A program made the position numbers and the translations under genes. Of a stretch of DNA of 52,339 bases, positions 9,315 to 32,290 are shown one piece after another. Positions within the stretch are counted from its first letter, which is position 1; each line of letters begins with the position of its first letter. Source of the stretch: a virus. The notes under the pieces are model-generated. The model did no database searches and was not told the DNA's origin. It saw only the letters and a list, made by a program, of their open reading frames with translations. Location of the stretch: IMG/VR virus record IMGVR_UViG_3300025652_000108, positions 1 through 52,339 of that record; one strand, 5' to 3'.

Positions 9315-12284
9315 TTAGTTGTGGGCGGCAGCGCTTTCTGAGGTCCTCCCAGTTACTACCTCAAGTTCTGTCGCCCCAGCGATCTCCGGGTGGCGCATGT
9401 TTACCGTGATGCACCACGACTGGACCTTCGCCAAAATTGTACCTTTACCCAGCACCTTCTTGATGCGTGGGTTTGCGACAACCCGATGCTCTTGGCCACG
9501 GGAGTCAAGCGATGGCCGGTTCAGCTCGTCCAGTACGCGGATCACGTTGGCCCCGATCTGCGCGCAGTAGTTTTTGAACGCGGAACGGTTTATGTGCATG
9601 ACGCCATCTGGCTTGTGGTAATGCGCCAGCATGTCCCCTCGGGGTTCACGGCTCAGGTATGGTACCTGCTTCCCGCTCTGCTGCATGTCCTCCGTCACAG
9701 CGATACGCGAGTTGTACCGCTCGATGAAGTCCGTGAGCACAGCAACAGGGTTCGCATACTCGTCACGCACCACACCGCGCATCAGCGGGATTTGCCTATC
9801 AAAAAACCACGCCTCCATGGTCGCTATGTTGAAATCCAGCAGGCCAAGCTCGTTCGCGAGCTCCGTGGCGACCAGTGTGGCCGCTGCCGTGGCCGACCAA
9901 AAGCGCTCGCCCGTCCGAATGTCGGCGCGCTCGTCGACGTATTTCATCTTATCGTGGATGCGGGCCTCGATGGCCGCACGGTTTTTTATGACGTGCTCAA
10001 TAAAAGCAGGTCCCACGTGCCCGTAGTTCTGCTTGAGTGCGCGGAGGTACTCATCCGCCTCGTACTTCTTGTGGATCGTGGTCTGAGGAAATGCGATCTC
10101 GAACACGCGCATAGACCCTGCGGTGCCGGCGGTGTTGTCCGTGGATAGGAGGCCGTGCAAGCTGCTGTTGGCCGTGGAGAGCATGATCGTGGACTTGTAG
10201 CCGTTGGACGTACCCTTGCGCTCCTGACGCTCTTTGCTGAGCCAGATACGCTGCGTGGGCTGGGTGATACCCATGACCATGTCTGCGGCGTGCGTAGGGT
10301 TCATGTGCGTGATCTCATCGACGCATAGAGGTAGGTTGGCCAATGTCGTCATACGCTGCTGCCGTGCGAGGGCGGTTGCGCCCTGATTGGTGCCGTTTAG
10401 CGTGAACTGCTCTGGGTTGCCCCACAGTGCAGCCGCTGTGTAAAGCGTTGTGGACTTGGACGCACCAGCGTCACCACTGGCGTTTACTACCACACCATGC
10501 TGCCCCGTAGCGTAGAACAATGGTGCCGCGAGGCTTGCCGCGACAAAGAACTGGTTCACAACGTAGCCGTCGTGACCGTAGAATTTTAGAAGCTGTGCCT
10601 GCTGACCAGCGTTACCCGCACGCCCCACGGTGTCTCCGGTGCCCCGCGCATTCCGCGATAGCGTGACAGGCTTTCTTGACCCGTCTGACTGGATGATGCC
10701 CTCCGGCAGAATGAACTGCTGGAAGTCTGCGGTCCAGCCGAGGTGGTCGCATTGCGCTTCCGCGTCGGCCAGCTTCTGGAGTTCTTTGATGTAAGCAACC
10801 ATGTAATCCTGTAGCCTCTTGACGTTGGCGGGGTGTGGATAGACCCCTGCGTTGGCGAGCACGCCGGTCAGTGTGCGCATGTCGTAGAGGGCTGAGCCGT
10901 CTACCGTGAATTCGGTGGCACCTACACGTGGTAGCACAGCGCACCAGACTTGCTGCTCCCGCTCCTCGGTGACATTTACGATCCGCGAGATGGGATACAA
11001 GTCGACCTCGAGCACGGTGTCCTGCGTTTCAACACCTTCCTCGTCGCGGCTAACCCTCACAACACCACCGGTTTTCAGACGCAGGTAGGGCTGCGGTGCA
11101 TCGGGTATCTTGCGCTCGATCATCTCATCACCGACAGCAACCGCAACCGTCGGTGCCTCGGCTTTATCGCGGTAGCGTGCAGCGACAACCGGGGACTTGA
11201 CCTTATCCTTGAACGCGCACCCAGCACACAGATCGCCGCCTTCGCTCACCTCAGCGAGCTTGGCACACGTCGTTGGCCCGAGGCTCTGGCTTTCCAGCTG
11301 GTGGAGTTTATCCTCGGTCTGGTCGTAATCGTAGCTGGGGTGGCCACTTGAAATCTTATGGGCCGCGGCACGGCCGTTCGCAGCAAACCGCACTAGGTTC
11401 AGCGAGTGGTACCACTCAGGCTCCGCGACATTCCCTTTCAAAGTAGCAAGGCGGCGGACCTGCGCACATGCCGAGATCATAGCCCTCATGGTGACCGGCG
11501 GACCAGTGAACTCGTTGACAAGGTTGTTCTCAAACCCGAATTCTTTACCGAGGTCGACCGGCGGACGCAGGCGCGTGGTCACAAGGCTGATCTCGTGGTC
11601 GTCTATGATCTGATCGAGCAACGCGCCGAACGCGGCAGGCTCTAGCGGTGCGGGCGACGACAGAACCTTTACCGGACGCGGTGTACTTGTCTTGTGGTTG
11701 AACGTGCCCGCCACACGCAAAACACTGGCCGTGTCCGTAGTACGTGCAGGGTCAAACCTTAGATCAAAATGTGACGCGATAGCCTTTAGTTTTGCGGCTT
11801 CGACCAGCCAGTCGCTGGTGTCGATGTCGTCGGTGAGGACCCAGTACACGTGGAGGCCGCCACCGGAGGACGTAATCAAGGGCTTTGGTAAGCCCGTGCT
11901 CTGGCAGAAGCTACGTAGCGACGTCACTGCCTCGTCACGGCTACCGTAGTGGCGCGGGTCGTCGGGCTTCACGTCGAGATCAAAGAAAAACGCTTTCGCA
12001 GCCAGCATGTTAGTTTGTACACGTACTTCATACTTCCCGAGCTCACCCGTGCGTGGGTTGGTCTTGTCGGGGTTCCAAACCTTTGGCTGCTTGAGAGAGT
12101 GGACACCGTAAAATACATCTTTGGTGTCGGCGATCTGGCTCACATACTCAGCGGCGTCCTCGATGCTATCAAAGACTTTTTGCGCGTACGTGGTAATTTT
12201 TGTGCCGGGAATTGTGAAGGGCGTGGCGATGACGTAGTGGCCGCGGGTCGGCCAGATGTGAGATAGGAAATCGGCTGATGTCAT
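9315..12284 (-). CDS. Primase (AEP type) fused to DUF927-like helicase
   Basis: This 989-residue replication protein starts at ATG 12284 (a GTG two codons earlier is possible). Residues 1-200 are an archaeo-eukaryotic-type primase/polymerase domain: FFFDLDVK (Asp102 and Asp104, metal binding), SSGGGLHVYW (140-148, catalytic His motif) and TASVLRVAGTFNHK (186-198). A zinc motif follows (TTCAKL then CAGC). The C-terminal half is a P-loop helicase of DUF927 type, with GDAGASKST near residue 605 and the Walker B LPLCVDEIT near 653. The P-loop has Ser where the usual Gly precedes Lys. It should prime and unwind DNA at the fork with the family A polymerase at 18.2 kb. Confidence 0.85.
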   Translation of the reverse strand: MTSADFLSHIWPTRGHYVIATPFTIPGTKITTYAQKVFDSIEDAAEYVSQIADTKDVFYGVHSLKQPKVWNPDKTNPRTGELGKYEVRVQTNMLAAKAFFFDLDVKPDDPRHYGSRDEAVTSLRSFCQSTGLPKPLITSSGGGLHVYWVLTDDIDTSDWLVEAAKLKAIASHFDLRFDPARTTDTASVLRVAGTFNHKTSTPRPVKVLSSPAPLEPAAFGALLDQIIDDHEISLVTTRLRPPVDLGKEFGFENNLVNEFTGPPVTMRAMISACAQVRRLATLKGNVAEPEWYHSLNLVRFAANGRAAAHKISSGHPSYDYDQTEDKLHQLESQSLGPTTCAKLAEVSEGGDLCAGCAFKDKVKSPVVAARYRDKAEAPTVAVAVGDEMIERKIPDAPQPYLRLKTGGVVRVSRDEEGVETQDTVLEVDLYPISRIVNVTEEREQQVWCAVLPRVGATEFTVDGSALYDMRTLTGVLANAGVYPHPANVKRLQDYMVAYIKELQKLADAEAQCDHLGWTADFQQFILPEGIIQSDGSRKPVTLSRNARGTGDTVGRAGNAGQQAQLLKFYGHDGYVVNQFFVAASLAAPLFYATGQHGVVVNASGDAGASKSTTLYTAAALWGNPEQFTLNGTNQGATALARQQRMTTLANLPLCVDEITHMNPTHAADMVMGITQPTQRIWLSKERQERKGTSNGYKSTIMLSTANSSLHGLLSTDNTAGTAGSMRVFEIAFPQTTIHKKYEADEYLRALKQNYGHVGPAFIEHVIKNRAAIEARIHDKMKYVDERADIRTGERFWSATAAATLVATELANELGLLDFNIATMEAWFFDRQIPLMRGVVRDEYANPVAVLTDFIERYNSRIAVTEDMQQSGKQVPYLSREPRGDMLAHYHKPDGVMHINRSAFKNYCAQIGANVIRVLDELNRPSLDSRGQEHRVVANPRIKKVLGKGTILAKVQSWCITVNMRHPEIAGATELEVVTGRTSESAAAHN

Positions 12285-12320
12285 GTGCACGCTCGCTTAT
12301 TTTATGCGGATGGATATGGT

Positions 12321-13726: not shown

Positions 13727-15286
13727 TTATACCTCATTGCTTGTGATCGACTCGTATAAGTCTAAGATGTTATCCTGTGTATCCTTCTTCTTGTCAACCA
13801 TATTATATATCTTCCATTCGAGCTCGTGTGCGCCGATGCGTACGATCGTCATTTTGCGGGTCTGACCTGAGCGGTTGAAGCGCTCCGTCACCTGCTGGAA
13901 CTCGTCGTTGGAGTAGATCGGGGCATAGAAAATGAGTGTGTCGGCCTCAGTCAGGTTGAGGCCGTGGGCCATGACCTTCGGGTGGCAGAGCAACAAGTGC
14001 GGGTCCGCAGTCGTTTTGAAGTTACGGATGATCTCGTCGCGTCGCTTGGCGGGGACATCGCCATTGAGCACGCCCACGCTATAGTCTTTGGCTAGGTGCT
14101 TCTCCAGTGACTTGATGATGCCTTTGAAGGGTACCACAACCAACACCTTCGCAGAGGCCCCTTGGATACACTGTCGCAGCGCGTCCAACCGTGGGCCGTA
14201 CGGTAGCTCGAGGTAATTGCCGGTCTCTGTGTCCCGCACCGACCCGCAAAGTATCTGGCGGATTTTGTTGATCTTGTCGGCTGCGTTGGCCGCAGTGATC
14301 TTGGTGGATGCCGCCTCCGCTAACATATGACGGCGCATATTTTCCAGTGCCCGTTTCTGGTCTGGTGTCGGAGCCGCGGTCAGGTCGGTAACAGTGACGG
14401 GTGGCAGGTCGAGGCAATCTTTCTTCTTGAACCGCACCGCAGGCTGCAACGCCTTAAACGCCATCTCGTGGGCATCAGGCCGCGCTTCCCAGCGGTAAGG
14501 TCCGTACTGCACCATCGTCTGCCGTTTGAATTGGCCAAAAAACTGCGGGACTGTGGTCGGCTCCACCAATCGCGCCAGCGCCCATGCGTCGGTCGGTGCG
14601 TTTGGACACGGGGTTCCAGTGAGCAGCCAGCGCCGCCGCTTGCCGAGAATGCTGTGCAGCGCCTTGTACTTCTTCGTCTGCGCGTTGCGGAACATGCTGG
14701 CTTCGTCGACGACGATCACGTCAATGTCGGGATGGCTCCGGATGGCGTCGTTCACGTCGCTTATGACCACACCATCGTGGTTGAGGATATAAAAATCCAC
14801 GTCAGCTTTTAATGCGGCGAGTCGTTTCTCACGTGTACCATGGACGATGATGCACCGGCGGTGCATCAGAACGTCGAATATGTCGTTCGCCCAGACGCGG
14901 TCGAGCGTGGACAACGGTGACAAGATCAAGACCTTACGCACTGCACCGATTGACATGAGGTAGTCCGCGGCCCAGAGGGTCGCAGCTGATTTACCGACAC
15001 CCATCTCAGACAGGTTGAACGCGGCGTGCTGCATTGTCAGGAATTCAGCCATGTCGCGCTGGTGGTTGAACGGCTTGTACTTTCCCGGCCAGTCGTAGCG
15101 GCTGTGGATCGGTGCTGGTGCGTCGATGCCAAGGGATCGTAATGCACGCGTATTATTTTCGTCGTGCTTTACAGCGATGTTGTAAGTGCCGTGGGGTATC
15201 AGCTTCGCGTTGCTGACTGCGTGCTGTACTGCGGTCACGTCGTCTACCGCCAGCACCAGACTATTCGTCCGCGGGTGTACTATCAT
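13727..15286 (-). CDS. SNF2-family helicase
   Basis: This 519-residue protein has all main SF2/SNF2 motifs: Q-like HQRDMAEFL (75-83), Walker A MGVGKS (95-100), Ia ILSPLSTLDRVW (121-132), motif II VVDEAS (192-197), motif III LLTGTPCPN (221-229), and in the second RecA domain GLNLTEADTLIFYAP, then the arginine-finger motif RFNRSGQ (469-475). Its size is close to that of minimal phage SNF2 proteins with no extra nuclease domain. Such phage helicases are thought to act in recombination-dependent replication or repair. It lies in the replication operon between a nuclease group and the SSB gene. Confidence 0.85.
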   Translation of the reverse strand: MIVHPRTNSLVLAVDDVTAVQHAVSNAKLIPHGTYNIAVKHDENNTRALRSLGIDAPAPIHSRYDWPGKYKPFNHQRDMAEFLTMQHAAFNLSEMGVGKSAATLWAADYLMSIGAVRKVLILSPLSTLDRVWANDIFDVLMHRRCIIVHGTREKRLAALKADVDFYILNHDGVVISDVNDAIRSHPDIDVIVVDEASMFRNAQTKKYKALHSILGKRRRWLLTGTPCPNAPTDAWALARLVEPTTVPQFFGQFKRQTMVQYGPYRWEARPDAHEMAFKALQPAVRFKKKDCLDLPPVTVTDLTAAPTPDQKRALENMRRHMLAEAASTKITAANAADKINKIRQILCGSVRDTETGNYLELPYGPRLDALRQCIQGASAKVLVVVPFKGIIKSLEKHLAKDYSVGVLNGDVPAKRRDEIIRNFKTTADPHLLLCHPKVMAHGLNLTEADTLIFYAPIYSNDEFQQVTERFNRSGQTRKMTIVRIGAHELEWKIYNMVDKKKDTQDNILDLYESITSNEV

Positions 15287-18027: not shown

Positions 18028-18199
18028 CCTGAGTCTCCTTGCGTAACACGTAGCCCATGCGCTTAAATGTATCCGCGTCAAATTTCTCGCTGAACTCAGC
18101 ATTGGGCCCTTGAAGCCTAATCATACCAGTTTTCTTGTCGTACCGCACCACCTCGTAGGAACGGCCAGTCCGTTTGTTATGCAGTATCAGCTTATCCAA
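18017..18199 (-). CDS. Small hypothetical protein (TTG start)
   Basis: This 60-residue, basic protein starts at TTG 18199, inside the last codons of the polymerase gene (8-base overlap), with AGAGGA about nine bases upstream. It reads as a compact beta-rich unit (LILHNKRTGRSYEVVRYDKKTGMIRLQG) followed by a helix (DADTFKRMGYVLRK). A short SH3/KOW-like barrel is conceivable but not demonstrable by eye. It is followed by the HNH-like gene with an 11-base overlap, so it is translated as part of the replication operon. Confidence 0.5.
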   Translation of the reverse strand: MDKLILHNKRTGRSYEVVRYDKKTGMIRLQGPNAEFSEKFDADTFKRMGYVLRKETQDAK

Positions 18200-20093
18200 A
18201 GTCGTATTCCTCTAAGTCGCCCCAGTTTGATCCGTGCTTGCAGTCCCACGGGAGCGGGATAGGCGGGGTAAACCCCCACACCTTTTTGTACGGCATGTTG
18301 TCGAGCAGGGCTCTGATCTCGTGGGCGGCCTTCTCTACCTTGTCCGTGGGTATGAACATGTAGATGCCGTCGTGCAGGTCCCAACCGAACCGGCCACCGA
18401 CGCTCGGTAGATAATCCCGCAGCAATGACATGGCCAAATACTTCTGGTCAGCCCCCGTACCTTGAATGCGGTAGTTGATCGCGGTCGAGCCCATCGACCA
18501 ACCGTAGTCACCATCCCACTCGCCCACTACTTTGACTCGCCGACCAGCAAATGTCTCGACGTACCCGCTCTGGCGCGTCATGGAGATTTGACGACCCCAA
18601 TACTGACCCACCTGCGGGTAACTCGCACGGTATGTGGCGTGAATATGCACCGCGTCAGGCAGGCTCATGTCCATCCCGTACTGTACTCGAGAAACGACGC
18701 GTAATTTTTTAGCCGATGTGCGGTACTGGAGGCTCAGGTTCGCCACTTTGCCTAGCTGGCGCTTGTTCTTTGCGTCCTTGTCACCTGCGCGCACTGCGGC
18801 CACAACCTCGCGATAATCTTTGGATGCGATCCGCGCCCCCATGAAGCCATGGGGGTCCTCGCCCGGCTGGCATAGGCTGAGCATCGTCTCGTCGTTAGAT
18901 GCGATGGCCATCCAGCGAAACTCTTGCCCCGCGGCGTCGAACTCCATCAGTGTGTACCCCTCTGGGGCACGGATAACCGACCGGAACTCAGCAGCCCGCT
19001 TCATCTGGTGCAGCGCAAACCCTGTCTGGCGGGCATCCTTGTTCCGCCCTTGCTTGGACGCATAGGTCAGACGGCCACTGTAGGTACCGAACACGATGGC
19101 GCTCGGGTGCGTGTTCCCGTCGCCATTGTACTCAGCCGATATAAGTGGGGCGGAGGCGAACTTCGTTTTGTTGTTGAGTGCCTCGCGGTACGACCGCAGC
19201 TTAGCCACACGGTTGTCGATGAACGACAGCTCGTGCAGCACCTCTTTGTCAGTGGATCGCGACCGATTACCGGTTTTCTTTGACACGTTTTCTTTTTGTA
19301 CTGGTAGGCCCCACTCGTCGAAGATCAGCTTGGACAGCTGGATCGGTGAGCGGATTACCTTCTCGGTGACCCCGTGAGGCTCCAGCTCCTCCAGCAAGGC
19401 GTCAGCGGCCATGTCTAGATTTTCGGCCAGCTGTGTCGTATGCCCCACGTCCACAGGCATACCGTCGAGGTTTGCTTTCGCGATCATGGGTAGGCAGCGC
19501 GCCTCGATCAGGGCTGCATTCAGCTGACGTGGGTCGTTCCGCTCCAAGCGCTCATAGAGCGCCTTGGTGATTGCGGCGGTGAACAGAACATCACGCTCGT
19601 TGTACTTATGTAGCCGTGCGAGGTCGTCGGGGTCCGTGCTGTGGAAGTCCACACCTTCCTCGTATCCCGCGTACTTGGGCAGGAATACGGCGACAGCATT
19701 CTTGAGGCTGTACGATCTCTTCTTGAACCGGTCAGTGATGTGGTACTCTGGCTCAATGTCAAGATGGCGCCACAAGAGCAGCCCGTCTAACCACGAACAC
19801 TGCATCACCAAGTCCTCCAGCCCGTAAGCGATCAGCCACGAGATGTCGAACGCCGTGTTCCAGCCAATGATGGTGCGCTTCTCAGCAATGGCAAACTCGA
19901 GCATCTCACGCATCGTGTCGACCGTAGGGCTCAAGCCGCCGTGCAGGCGTGTCTTACCATCTACAGACGCAGACCAGACAAAACTGGTGGCCCACGCCGA
20001 ACCTTGTGCCAGCCGCCATGGTTGCAACGCGTACTCAGGTAGCTCACCTGATGTTTCAAAGTCGAACGCAAGGTATTCGTTATCATTCCACAT
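18192..20093 (-). CDS. DNA polymerase, family A, with 3'-5' exonuclease
   Basis: This 633-residue polymerase starts at ATG 20093, with GGAGG upstream. The exonuclease motifs are LAFDFETSG (Asp11, Glu13), GWNTAFDISWL, and YNERDVLFTAAI. The polymerase motifs are A: EFDAAGQEFR (386-393), B: RxxxKVANLSLQYR (445-458) and C: LHDG (574-576). Motif B aligns exactly with E. coli R754-x3-K758-x3-F762-x3-Y766-G767, and the residue at the 762 position is Leu453. Motif C has Gly576 where nearly all family A enzymes have Glu (HDE). There is no 5'-nuclease domain. It is the presumed replicative polymerase. Confidence 0.9.
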   Translation of the reverse strand: MWNDNEYLAFDFETSGELPEYALQPWRLAQGSAWATSFVWSASVDGKTRLHGGLSPTVDTMREMLEFAIAEKRTIIGWNTAFDISWLIAYGLEDLVMQCSWLDGLLLWRHLDIEPEYHITDRFKKRSYSLKNAVAVFLPKYAGYEEGVDFHSTDPDDLARLHKYNERDVLFTAAITKALYERLERNDPRQLNAALIEARCLPMIAKANLDGMPVDVGHTTQLAENLDMAADALLEELEPHGVTEKVIRSPIQLSKLIFDEWGLPVQKENVSKKTGNRSRSTDKEVLHELSFIDNRVAKLRSYREALNNKTKFASAPLISAEYNGDGNTHPSAIVFGTYSGRLTYASKQGRNKDARQTGFALHQMKRAAEFRSVIRAPEGYTLMEFDAAGQEFRWMAIASNDETMLSLCQPGEDPHGFMGARIASKDYREVVAAVRAGDKDAKNKRQLGKVANLSLQYRTSAKKLRVVSRVQYGMDMSLPDAVHIHATYRASYPQVGQYWGRQISMTRQSGYVETFAGRRVKVVGEWDGDYGWSMGSTAINYRIQGTGADQKYLAMSLLRDYLPSVGGRFGWDLHDGIYMFIPTDKVEKAAHEIRALLDNMPYKKVWGFTPPIPLPWDCKHGSNWGDLEEYDFG

Positions 20094-21119: not shown

Positions 21120-21475
21120 AGCCCCATCTCCTCTGCATACGCATCTCGCACAAAAGTGGTTAGAAGCTCTGCCAGCGACATGTCGCGTGGCAGTTGATCC
21201 AGCAGCCACAACAATTCGTCTTCGCTCAAGCCGCTAAGAACCTTCTTGATGCTGCCACGGTCAGACTCATTTTCCTTCAAGAACAACGTCACTTGGTCGT
21301 GGCGATTCATTGTAGGCTTTGGCGGCAACAGGCCCAGTTCGCGGGCTTTGGTTATACGAGTGCCGACCCAATTTCTGTTTCTATCAAGTGCCTCCCCGAT
21401 CTGAATGTTGCTCATGCCCTGCGCTCGCAACTTTGCGACCGCCGCTGCACCTTCTGTCTTGCTCATGTACTTCAT
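21116..21475 (-). CDS. Helix-turn-helix protein
   Basis: This 119-residue protein has a clear N-terminal helix-turn-helix: AAAVAKLRAQGMSNIQIGEALDRNRNWVGTRITKAREL (about residues 9-46), like those of Trp-repressor- and sigma-region-4-like regulators. The C-terminal half is helical and acidic (IKKVLSGLSEDELLWLLDQLP, LAELLTTFVRDAYAEE), possibly for dimerisation. It is the only obvious sequence-specific DNA-binding protein in the minus-strand arm and so one candidate regulator for the phage operators. ATGA overlaps link it to the genes on both sides. Confidence 0.65.
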   Translation of the reverse strand: MKYMSKTEGAAAVAKLRAQGMSNIQIGEALDRNRNWVGTRITKARELGLLPPKPTMNRHDQVTLFLKENESDRGSIKKVLSGLSEDELLWLLDQLPRDMSLAELLTTFVRDAYAEEMGL

Positions 21476-29730: not shown

Positions 29731-29746
29731 TGTGACACGTGTCACA
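29731..29746. promoter_or_regulatory. 16-bp palindrome TGTGACACGTGTCACA, copy 7
   Basis: Lies 36 bases before the ATG at 29694 and about 41 bases downstream of the predicted start site of the promoter at 29787-29815, that is in the transcribed leader. Confidence 0.9.
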
Positions 29747-29786
29747 AAACCGTAGGTTAGTCGGTCAAGTTATCGACCTTACTAAT

Positions 29787-29815
29787 ACAGTATCATACTT
29801 AAAACCTTACGTCAA
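29787..29815 (-). promoter_or_regulatory. Possible promoter for the 29694 gene
   Basis: On the minus strand TTGACG (29815-29810), a 17-base spacer and TACTGT (29792-29787). The -35 is good and the -10 is weak. Confidence 0.35.
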
Positions 29816-29894
29816 TAGTAAAGTTTTACACGAAAAAACTAAGAATAAGGAAATACGCGTGTCAGAATACACACACATCAGGCTGCGTGGCACG

Positions 29895-29925
29895 TAAGCC
29901 ATTGAAAACATTGCCACTAGTCCAA
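29895..29925 (+). repeat. 31-bp origin-region repeat, copy R1
   Basis: Reads TAAGCCATTGAAAACATTG followed by CCACTAGTCCAA. It differs from R2 at only a few positions. Confidence 0.85.
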
Positions 29926-29958
29926 CTTTTTGGGGGAGTAGTCCAGATGGGGTTTGGC

Positions 29959-29989
29959 TAAGTCCTTGAAAACATTGGCACTAGTCCAA
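29959..29989 (+). repeat. 31-bp origin-region repeat, copy R2
   Basis: Reads TAAGTCCTTGAAAACATTG followed by GCACTAGTCCAA; 64 bases after R1. Confidence 0.85.
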
Positions 29990-30023
29990 GCTACGATATG
30001 TAGGGTTATAAAAAGGGGGTCTG

Positions 30024-30054
30024 CAAGCCATTGAAAACATTGCCACTAGTCCAA
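30024..30054 (+). repeat. 31-bp origin-region repeat, copy R3
   Basis: Matches R1 over CCATTGAAAACATTGCC and ACTAGTCCAA; 65 bases after R2. A second TAGTCCA follows at exactly 9-bp spacing (30056-30062). Confidence 0.85.
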
Positions 30055-30173
30055 ATAGTCCACTTTTTTGGGATTTTGGGAGCAGAGAGAGACCATATTT
30101 AGGGGAGGGTTAATTTATACGCAAAAAAGAATAGTCCAGAGAAGCTGTCTGGTTATATATATCTTCAAATGAG

Positions 30174-30200
30174 TGGACTAGTTGGACTATTTGGACTAGA
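30174..30200. repeat. Three tandem 9-bp iteron-like units (TGGACTANN)
   Basis: TGGACTA begins at 30174, 30183 and 30192, so three 9-bp units lie head to tail: TGGACTAGT, TGGACTATT and TGGACTAGA. Confidence 0.85.
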
Positions 30201-30265
30201 GCCTTTAATATCAATGGGTTACGACCCCCCCAAATAGTCCACTCTACTTATAGGTGTGGTGTTGT

Positions 30266-30296
30266 TTGGACTAGTGCTAATGATTTCAATGACTTA
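30266..30296 (-). repeat. 31-bp origin-region repeat, inverted copy I1
   Basis: The reverse complement (TAAGTCATTGAAATCATTA then GCACTAGTCCAA) matches R1-R3. Confidence 0.85.
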
Positions 30297-30307
30297 GGTT
30301 TTTGAAT

Positions 30308-30338
30308 TTGGACTAGTGCTAATGTTTTCAATGACTTA
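30308..30338 (-). repeat. 31-bp origin-region repeat, inverted copy I2
   Basis: Inverted copy 42 bases after I1 and differing from it at one position; the two copies face R1-R3 across the AT-rich centre. Confidence 0.85.
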
Positions 30339-30387
30339 GCGGCGATGCCTCTCAAACCACTGGTTTATAAGGGTTTTTTAGTTATTT

Positions 30388-30403
30388 TGTGACACGTGTC
30401 ACA
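30388..30403. promoter_or_regulatory. 16-bp palindrome TGTGACACGTGTCACA, copy 8
   Basis: Lies in the non-coding region at the right edge of the origin-like repeats; no start codon follows on either strand within 100 bases. Confidence 0.9.
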
Positions 30404-30437
30404 GAAACTGCGTACGCGGTTGTATTGCAGATAGGTA

Positions 30438-30482
30438 TTGACATTGTGGCATTCGGTTGGTAAGACACTGTCGTGTCTTACC
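30438..30482 (+). promoter_or_regulatory. 43-bp promoter-like element with inverted repeat, copy 1
   Basis: TTGACA (30438-30443), a 17-base spacer and TAAGAC (30461-30466). The -10 region begins a perfect 10-bp inverted repeat, GGTAAGACAC / GTGTCTTACC (30459-30482), with loop TGTC. 41 of 43 bases (30438-30480) match copy 2. Confidence 0.6.
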
Positions 30483-30524
30483 AGAATCAGTACGAAATAA
30501 CACGTTACGGTTCGATAGACCAAA

Positions 30525-30547
30525 CCATCCATCAAACTACTATATCG
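30525..30547. repeat. Repeat with core CATCAAACTACTATAT, copy A
   Basis: Core plus the preceding CCATC is shared with copies at 31395 and 31472. On the minus strand it reads ATATAGTAGTTTGATGG, in which TATAGT resembles a -10 box. Confidence 0.75.
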
Positions 30548-30580
30548 CAAAACATCTGAGAAAAGATGTCGCGTTGTGTC

Positions 30581-30625
30581 TTGACATTGTGGCATCCGGT
30601 TGATAAGACACTGTCGTGTCTTATC
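30581..30625 (+). promoter_or_regulatory. 43-bp promoter-like element with inverted repeat, copy 2
   Basis: TTGACA (30581-30586), 17-base spacer, TAAGAC (30604-30609). The inverted repeat is GATAAGACAC / GTGTCTTATC, again 10 perfect base pairs. Relative to copy 1 the second pair changed from G-C to A-T on both arms. Confidence 0.6.
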
Positions 30626-30668
30626 GAAAACTTACGGTTTAAGACCTTGCACCCCTTACCACGTATTC

Positions 30669-30684
30669 TGTGACACGTGTCACA
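30669..30684. promoter_or_regulatory. 16-bp palindrome TGTGACACGTGTCACA, copy 9
   Basis: Directly follows the T-run of the terminator at 30684-30714 on the minus strand. Confidence 0.9.
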
Positions 30685-30714
30685 AAAAAGCCCCGCAGCT
30701 TTCGCTCCGGGGCT
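30684..30714 (-). terminator. Intrinsic terminator of the 31228 gene
   Basis: On the minus strand a GC-rich stem (AGCCCCG/CGGGGCT plus a short inner stem) is followed by TTTTTT. It lies 26 bases beyond the stop at 30740. Confidence 0.8.
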
Positions 30715-30739
30715 CATGTCGTTTAGATGTGAAGGCGGT

Positions 30740-32251: not shown

Positions 32252-32290
32252 CCAAGAGGTAAAGTATGACGCGTTATAGTTCAAGCGGTT

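Follow-up and report, generated by a model that had tools for sequence, protein, structure and literature searches.

Layout of the non-coding repeat region

The window, that is the whole stretch of DNA that was analysed, is the IMG/VR record IMGVR_UViG_3300025652_000108 of 52,339 bases, and its genes are arranged in two arms. The minus-strand arm, from about 9.3 to 32.2 kb, contains the replication genes: it encodes a DUF927 protein of 991 aa (9315-12290), an SNF2-type helicase (13727-15286), a PD-(D/E)XK nuclease, a family A DNA polymerase (18192-20093), a MoxR-like ATPase and a DUF2201 protein. The plus-strand arm starts at 32.7 kb and contains the structural genes (terminase, portal, capsid). 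The repeats studied here (29895-30338) are situated in a non-coding gap (29746-30739) that has 42% GC versus 57% for the phage. Some 2 kb to the right of the repeats, at about 32.2 kb, the two arms part. Judged by the terminase, the nearest isolates are Pseudomonas phage Rollin (47%) and then the Rhizobium phages RHph_TM (34%). At the DNA level no relatives of the repeat region were found among annotated phages, a literature search for the exact strings returned chance matches only, and no tRNAs and only sub-threshold matches to Rfam RNAs were detected. The three-iteron pattern gave 44 matches in bacterial genomes, nearly all of which were unrelated 9-bp minisatellites or coding repeats, and the pattern matches L064-L067 were discarded as chance.

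Three direct copies of a 31-bp repeat start at 29895, 29959 and 30024 (29896, 29960 and 30025 without the leading base) and are mutually 90-100% identical. Two further copies, at 30266 and 30308, lie in the inverted orientation, with a complementarity of about 85-94% to the direct ones. The iteron TAGTCCA, or its complement TGGACTA, is present 12 times between 29918 and 30315 and 6 times elsewhere, which brings the window to 18 versus 3.9 expected. After 1000 dinucleotide shuffles of the region the densest 405 bp contained at most 2 copies, versus the 12 observed. The steps between 30047 and 30056 and between 30174, 30183 and 30192 are exactly 9 bp. The repeat coordinates, the twelve iterons in roughly 400 bp and these steps had been reported correctly in the preliminary description, in which half of the pattern, namely the IHF-like boxes and a sixth module, had been overlooked.

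The outer part of every 31-bp repeat (YAANNNNTTGAWW, reading TTTCAANNNNTTR on the opposite strand) corresponds with at most one mismatch to the IHF consensus, which is WATCAAnnnnTTR or TAAnnnnTTGATW (PMC10380432). The boxes were searched as WWTCAANNNNTTR, a pattern derived from this published consensus. Seven matches were present in the 52-kb window, six of them in the repeat region, inside a stretch of 450 bp: on the minus strand at 29895, 29959 and 30024 and on the plus strand at 30209, 30284 and 30326. In the shuffled region a mean of 0.065 and a maximum of 2 matches were obtained, versus these 6. One is a strict consensus site (WATCAANNNNTTR) and the other five have one mismatch, a T that replaces A at one consensus position, which was counted against the origin reading presented below. 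The five repeat copies are not mutually independent; the sixth box (30209) belongs to a degenerate module with little other resemblance to them.

A spacing of 23 bp between box and TAGTCCA recurs in every one of the six modules, including the degenerate one, and the modules are arranged three and three, divergently, around a centre. On the left, in plus orientation, module 1 (29895-29925) consists of the box TTTCAATGGCTTA on the minus strand (29895-29907) and the iteron at 29918-29924, module 2 (29959-29989) of the box TTTCAAGGACTTA and the iteron at 29982-29988, and module 3 (30024-30062) of the box TTTCAATGGCTTG and the two iterons 30047-30053 and 30056-30062. On the right, in minus orientation, module 4 (30174-30221) combines the iterons at 30174, 30183 and 30192 with the strict box TATCAATGGGTTA (30209-30221); its part 30192-30221 is the degenerate, previously overlooked module that completes the 3+3 layout. 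Modules 5 (30266-30296) and 6 (30308-30338) both carry the box TTTCAATGACTTA, at 30284-30296 and 30326-30338, with iterons at 30267-30273 and 30309-30315 respectively. Single plus-strand iterons without a box are located at 29939-29945 and 30235-30241, and another lies in the centre at 30132-30138.

The putative unwinding centre between the opposed sets (30063-30173) has an AT content of 64% over 30064-30173 compared with a genome value of about 43%. In terms of low duplex stability, the weakest 50 bp of the centre (30152) rank among the top 0.23% of the window, with a z of 3.5. The earlier characterization of the centre as AT-rich holds in comparison with the genome, but the positions 29779 and 32290 and other intergenic spots are weaker still, and the term is therefore relative. 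The lowest-GC point as an origin locator fails in the window itself, where it is found at 32288. Consequently, box pairs were counted without regard to AT content. The GC skew shows no sign change at 30 kb, which was counted against the origin reading, but it is uninformative; the cumulative skew has a local minimum at about 23 kb, and gene orientation confounds the skew.

Other repeats are found around the region. The perfect 16-bp palindrome TGTGACACGTGTCACA is present in 11 exact copies in the window (24614, 26052, 27121, 28040, 29010, 29482, 29731, 30388, 30669, 31342 and 32347), most of them a few to 41 bp before the ATG of leftward genes. Its sequence conforms to the CRP pattern TGTGAN6TCACA, and it resembles an operator present in repeated copies. 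Relatives have their own repeated perfect or near-perfect intergenic palindromes (L284 780-7506, L280 1014-3365, L262 at about 203 and 1050, L223 at about 4340 and 7228), these being TCTGGGTAGCTACCCAGA in seven copies, GTGTGTGCATGCACACAC in three and, by eye, TTTGAGACGSCGTCTCAAA and TTTGTTAGATSATCTAACAAA. This suggests that the phages have a regulator with an operator subject to turnover. Beside the candidate origin a 46-bp direct repeat (TTGACATTGTGGCAT...TAAGACACTGTCGTGTCTTA; 30435-30480 and 30578-30623) contains an inverted repeat as well as a TTGACA that resembles a -35 element. In Rollin (OR577172; L068 1-500) unannotated DNA contains four palindromes of the AAAAGGTAGCAAGTTACTACCTTTT type along with further inverted repeats, and may be an origin or control region.

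The primase-helicase of the replication arm

The 991-aa protein combines an N-terminal, PrimPol-like AEP primase with a DUF927 helicase (Pfam E 1.1e-18). The AEP primase motifs DLDV, SSGGGxHVYW and LRVxGTFNxK are present and are conserved in ten homologues. The protein also carries a GxxGxSKST P-loop, and a C-terminal winged-helix-like region is predicted at residues 848-965 approximately. A profile of the protein and its homologues matched PDB 8tch, the SaPIbov1 initiator (E 2.8e-22), and PDB 5dgk, SCCmec Cch (E 4e-19). An AlphaFold model was obtained with a mean pLDDT of 76 and a pTM of 0.44, which makes it reliable at the domain level only. With this model, Foldseek returned the SaPIbov1 initiator first and Cch second, followed by AEP primases that included RepB' and the PrimPol of cyanophage S-2L. 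Cch, which has a DUF927 domain, has been described as a relative of SaPIbov1 Rep, and SaPI Rep as recognising the origin iterons via its C-terminal domain (PMC7581432). The 991-aa protein is the proposed, and likely, initiator of 29895-30338.

The resemblance to SaPIbov1 Rep and SCCmec Cch concerns the DUF927-type helicase, by profile as well as fold (PDB 8tch, 5dgk; PMC7581432). Clustered short iterons in non-coding DNA are likewise shared with the SaPI origin, and the two opposed sets fit the two-hexamer loading proposed for SaPI Rep (PMC7581432). In contrast to Rep and Cch, the phage protein has an AEP primase fused to its helicase, and the genome is that of a phage, not an island. Unlike the SaPI origin, every one of the six modules includes an IHF-like box whose distance from the iteron is constant. 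Besides, the SaPI origin lies directly downstream of rep, whereas here the gene (9315-12290) and the repeats (29895-30338) are 18 kb apart, which was counted against the origin reading.

An AEP-superfamily primase and a helicase are also united in one replication protein in the polymerase of phage NrS-1 and in ORF904 of plasmid pRN1 (PMC8718748, PMC4234260). Here, however, the helicase class is DUF927, SaPI/Cch-like, and the NrS-1 priming motif TTTGGTTA does not occur in the candidate origin (one copy in the window, at 21347). With iteron plasmids such as pSC101 and RK2 (PMC4980987 and general knowledge) the region has in common iterons, a weak AT-rich segment and IHF involvement, in the form of IHF-like boxes. 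It differs from them in that its iteron sets are opposed instead of tandem, that no DnaA box (TTATNCACA) was found in the window (the sole match to the looser TTWTNCACA is at 1756) and that no plasmid-type Rep initiator was present among the proteins scanned. As in the lambda ori, with its O protein iterons, the iterons adjoin an AT-rich segment, but they are located outside the initiator gene, no O-like protein was seen among the proteins scanned, and the initiator candidate is itself a helicase-primase.

Conservation in related phages and TAGTCCA clusters elsewhere

A pattern scan yielded the 59.6-kb contig IMGVR_UViG_3300006802_000106 (L015, hereafter G001) and a contig of the same kind (L018). 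G001 is syntenic with the window in reverse, and its proteins are 28-72% identical (PrimPol-DUF927 49%, SNF2 58%, PolA 54%, TerL 59%). Its sole TAGTCCA cluster lies at 23.77-23.92 kb, between the arms, a place that corresponds to that of the cluster in the window. The box-to-iteron spacing is 23, 23 and 24, and an AT run separates the opposed modules. A terminase search produced 77 loci, two of which are contigs of the phage of the window itself; among these relatives, G001 and its sister contig alone have TAGTCCA clusters.

In other relatives the layout was accompanied by a different iteron. L297 has retained boxes and layout with the iteron GTGTCCA, and in L256 and L263 the iterons GTCCACG and GGCCACG are positioned outside the box, at -30/-18 bp on both sides. 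Over the terminase region the DNA of L256 and L263 is about 91% identical, and yet their iterons differ. This implies that the iteron changed fast, with several sites changing jointly. Eight related phages (of which L256 and L263 are closely related) have divergent box pairs at a distance of 80-400 bp, as compared with at most one phage for each of 300 column-permuted motifs. Convergent pairs were seen in two phages. The divergent pairs in the relatives surround AT cores with the iterons GTGTCCA, GTCCACG or GGCCACG.

The box pair is not a universal rule, since it was not detected by the motif search in L260, L280, L262 and Rollin, which do possess the DUF927 protein (in Rollin the PrimPol-DUF927 is 31% identical to that of the window). 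Nor was it found in many terminase relatives, where different repeats are present, and this was counted against the origin reading. Such repeats near the arm junction are TTCTTTCC in L248 and TTTCGCA in L242. They flank AT cores (L248 6640-6960, L242 3610-3900); a DUF927 homologue was not found in either record, that of L242 being a fragment, and these cores are likely origins of a different initiator. In the isolated Rhizobium phage RHph_TM27A (60.9 kb) the box motif occurs only twice, 318 bp apart, in a single AT-rich gap where the arms meet, which was counted in favour of the origin reading. The orientation of the two is convergent, not divergent, which was counted against it and implies that the orientation varies even if the pairing is constant. 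This phage encodes a remote homologue of the 991-aa protein (23.5% identity over 89%), EVB29_077 (MN988461 42248-45331), whose label 'putative integrase' is probably a misannotation. Positional conservation, which had been suggested earlier as a check, was thus encountered in part. The same iteron, spacing and place recur in the syntenic G001, but TAGTCCA is confined to this one kind (two contigs); the layout recurs with changed iterons, but several relatives, some of them closer by terminase, have other repeats.

Outside this phage group, non-coding TAGTCCA clusters in unrelated contigs adjoin genes for DUF927 (Actinobacillus), VapE, D5_N/NrS-1-type, DUF3987-like and AAA_25 proteins, and in one more case a gene that is TrfA-like by eye only. 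Their position beside initiator-type genes agrees with an iteron role. As TAGTCCA was the search key, these clusters do not show common descent, and shared ancestry is not claimed for L010, L017, L103, L123, L185, L217 and L219. A universal TAGTCCA iteron of DUF927 helicases was ruled out by 20 other bacterial DUF927 loci without a cluster, which were also counted against the origin reading. DUF927 loci were present in 19 of 229 genomes, the cluster in Actinobacillus only. The integrative elements of this organism (L027 6580-6870, L029 4230-4520) have 13-14 TAGTCCA copies and a AAGTATTTGATTTT box, immediately 3' of the DUF927 gene, or of what by eye is a remnant of it; in L027 the iterons thereby have a SaPI-like placement.

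A candidate origin and its alternatives

The preliminary description had proposed an initiator-bound origin, and iterons with a weak-helix centre in non-coding DNA close to the arm junction do fit one. Support comes from the primase-helicase, which in structure matches the SaPIbov1 replication initiator best, from the recurrence of the region in a syntenic relative and from that of the layout with changed iterons in others. We consider it probable that this podovirus-like phage has its replication origin at 29895-30338, where replication would start by means of the primase-helicase, the iterons and IHF-type boxes. It is very likely an origin of a known general kind, that of the SaPI/Cch-type initiators, the unusual element being the composite of iteron and IHF-like module. 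The primase-helicase would bind the TAGTCCA iterons, its C-terminal domain being the probable site of contact, and IHF or a related host bending protein may occupy the box 23 bp from the iteron in each of the six modules, as the match to the consensus suggests. Bending by the opposed 3+3 modules could then wrap the two arms, so that the weak centre (about 30064-30173) is strained and melts. Two helicase rings, loaded head to head, would prime bidirectional replication, after which the phage DNA polymerase A would take over extension. Whether this amounts to a distinct origin architecture we judge to be an even question. In such an architecture iterons would stand at a lineage-fixed helical distance from constant bending-protein sites, in opposed sets round a melting centre. 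They would turn over in concert in each genome, as in the series TAGTCCA, GTGTCCA, GTCCACG and GGCCACG across these phages, presumably together with the C-terminal domain of the PrimPol-DUF927 protein.

The region could also be an origin whose 'IHF' box serves the initiator, or a different phage protein, as a second recognition element. One protein with two DNA-binding surfaces would equally explain the constant box-iteron distance, and five of the six boxes deviate from the strict consensus. However, the box is unchanged in phages whose iterons differ and occupy its other side, its four middle bases vary freely, as they do in the IHF consensus, and in a different organism (Actinobacillus L027) a similar box adjoins a DUF927 locus. 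This explanation is regarded as unlikely. A smaller chance is given to transcription control, with TAGTCCA as the operators of a phage repressor or activator of the leftward early genes. The region is indeed upstream of the leftward replication operon, operator-like palindromes and the 46-bp repeat adjoin it, and IHF serves promoters too. On the other hand, promoter-like matches in the region are weak, and it holds 12 of the 18 TAGTCCA copies of the genome, whereas a separate palindrome (11 copies) is already distributed like an operator. In addition, the non-coding TAGTCCA clusters elsewhere adjoin replication initiator or helicase genes.

The variety of primase-helicase families next to such clusters in unrelated contigs might suggest that TAGTCCA is one ancient iteron common to them. 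But these loci were selected by the word itself, among millions of contigs any 7-mer will serve some unrelated origins as iteron, and the 19 genomes with DUF927 loci lack a cluster save Actinobacillus, which makes common ancestry very improbable. P1 parS-type sites combine clustered short repeats with IHF sites, and the terminase genes are about 3 kb away, but a partition (parS-like) or packaging recognition region is the least credible explanation, since no ParA/ParB-like gene was seen among the proteins scanned (a subset of the ORFs), packaging ends could not be assigned and opposed iterons round a weak centre are atypical of either.

The origins of phages far from the model phages are mostly unmapped. 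The origin reading preferred here provides a family-wide, testable model for podovirus-like phages with primase-helicase fusions, and connects these to the initiator helicases of SaPI and SCCmec. The related origins, in which the iterons have changed and the layout is kept, form a natural series in which the co-evolution of initiator and iteron, as well as the part played by a host bending protein, can be tested directly. If the composite architecture is true, they would constitute a natural series of changes in initiator-iteron specificity. The search for box pairs is, moreover, a simple locator of candidate origins in uncultured relatives.
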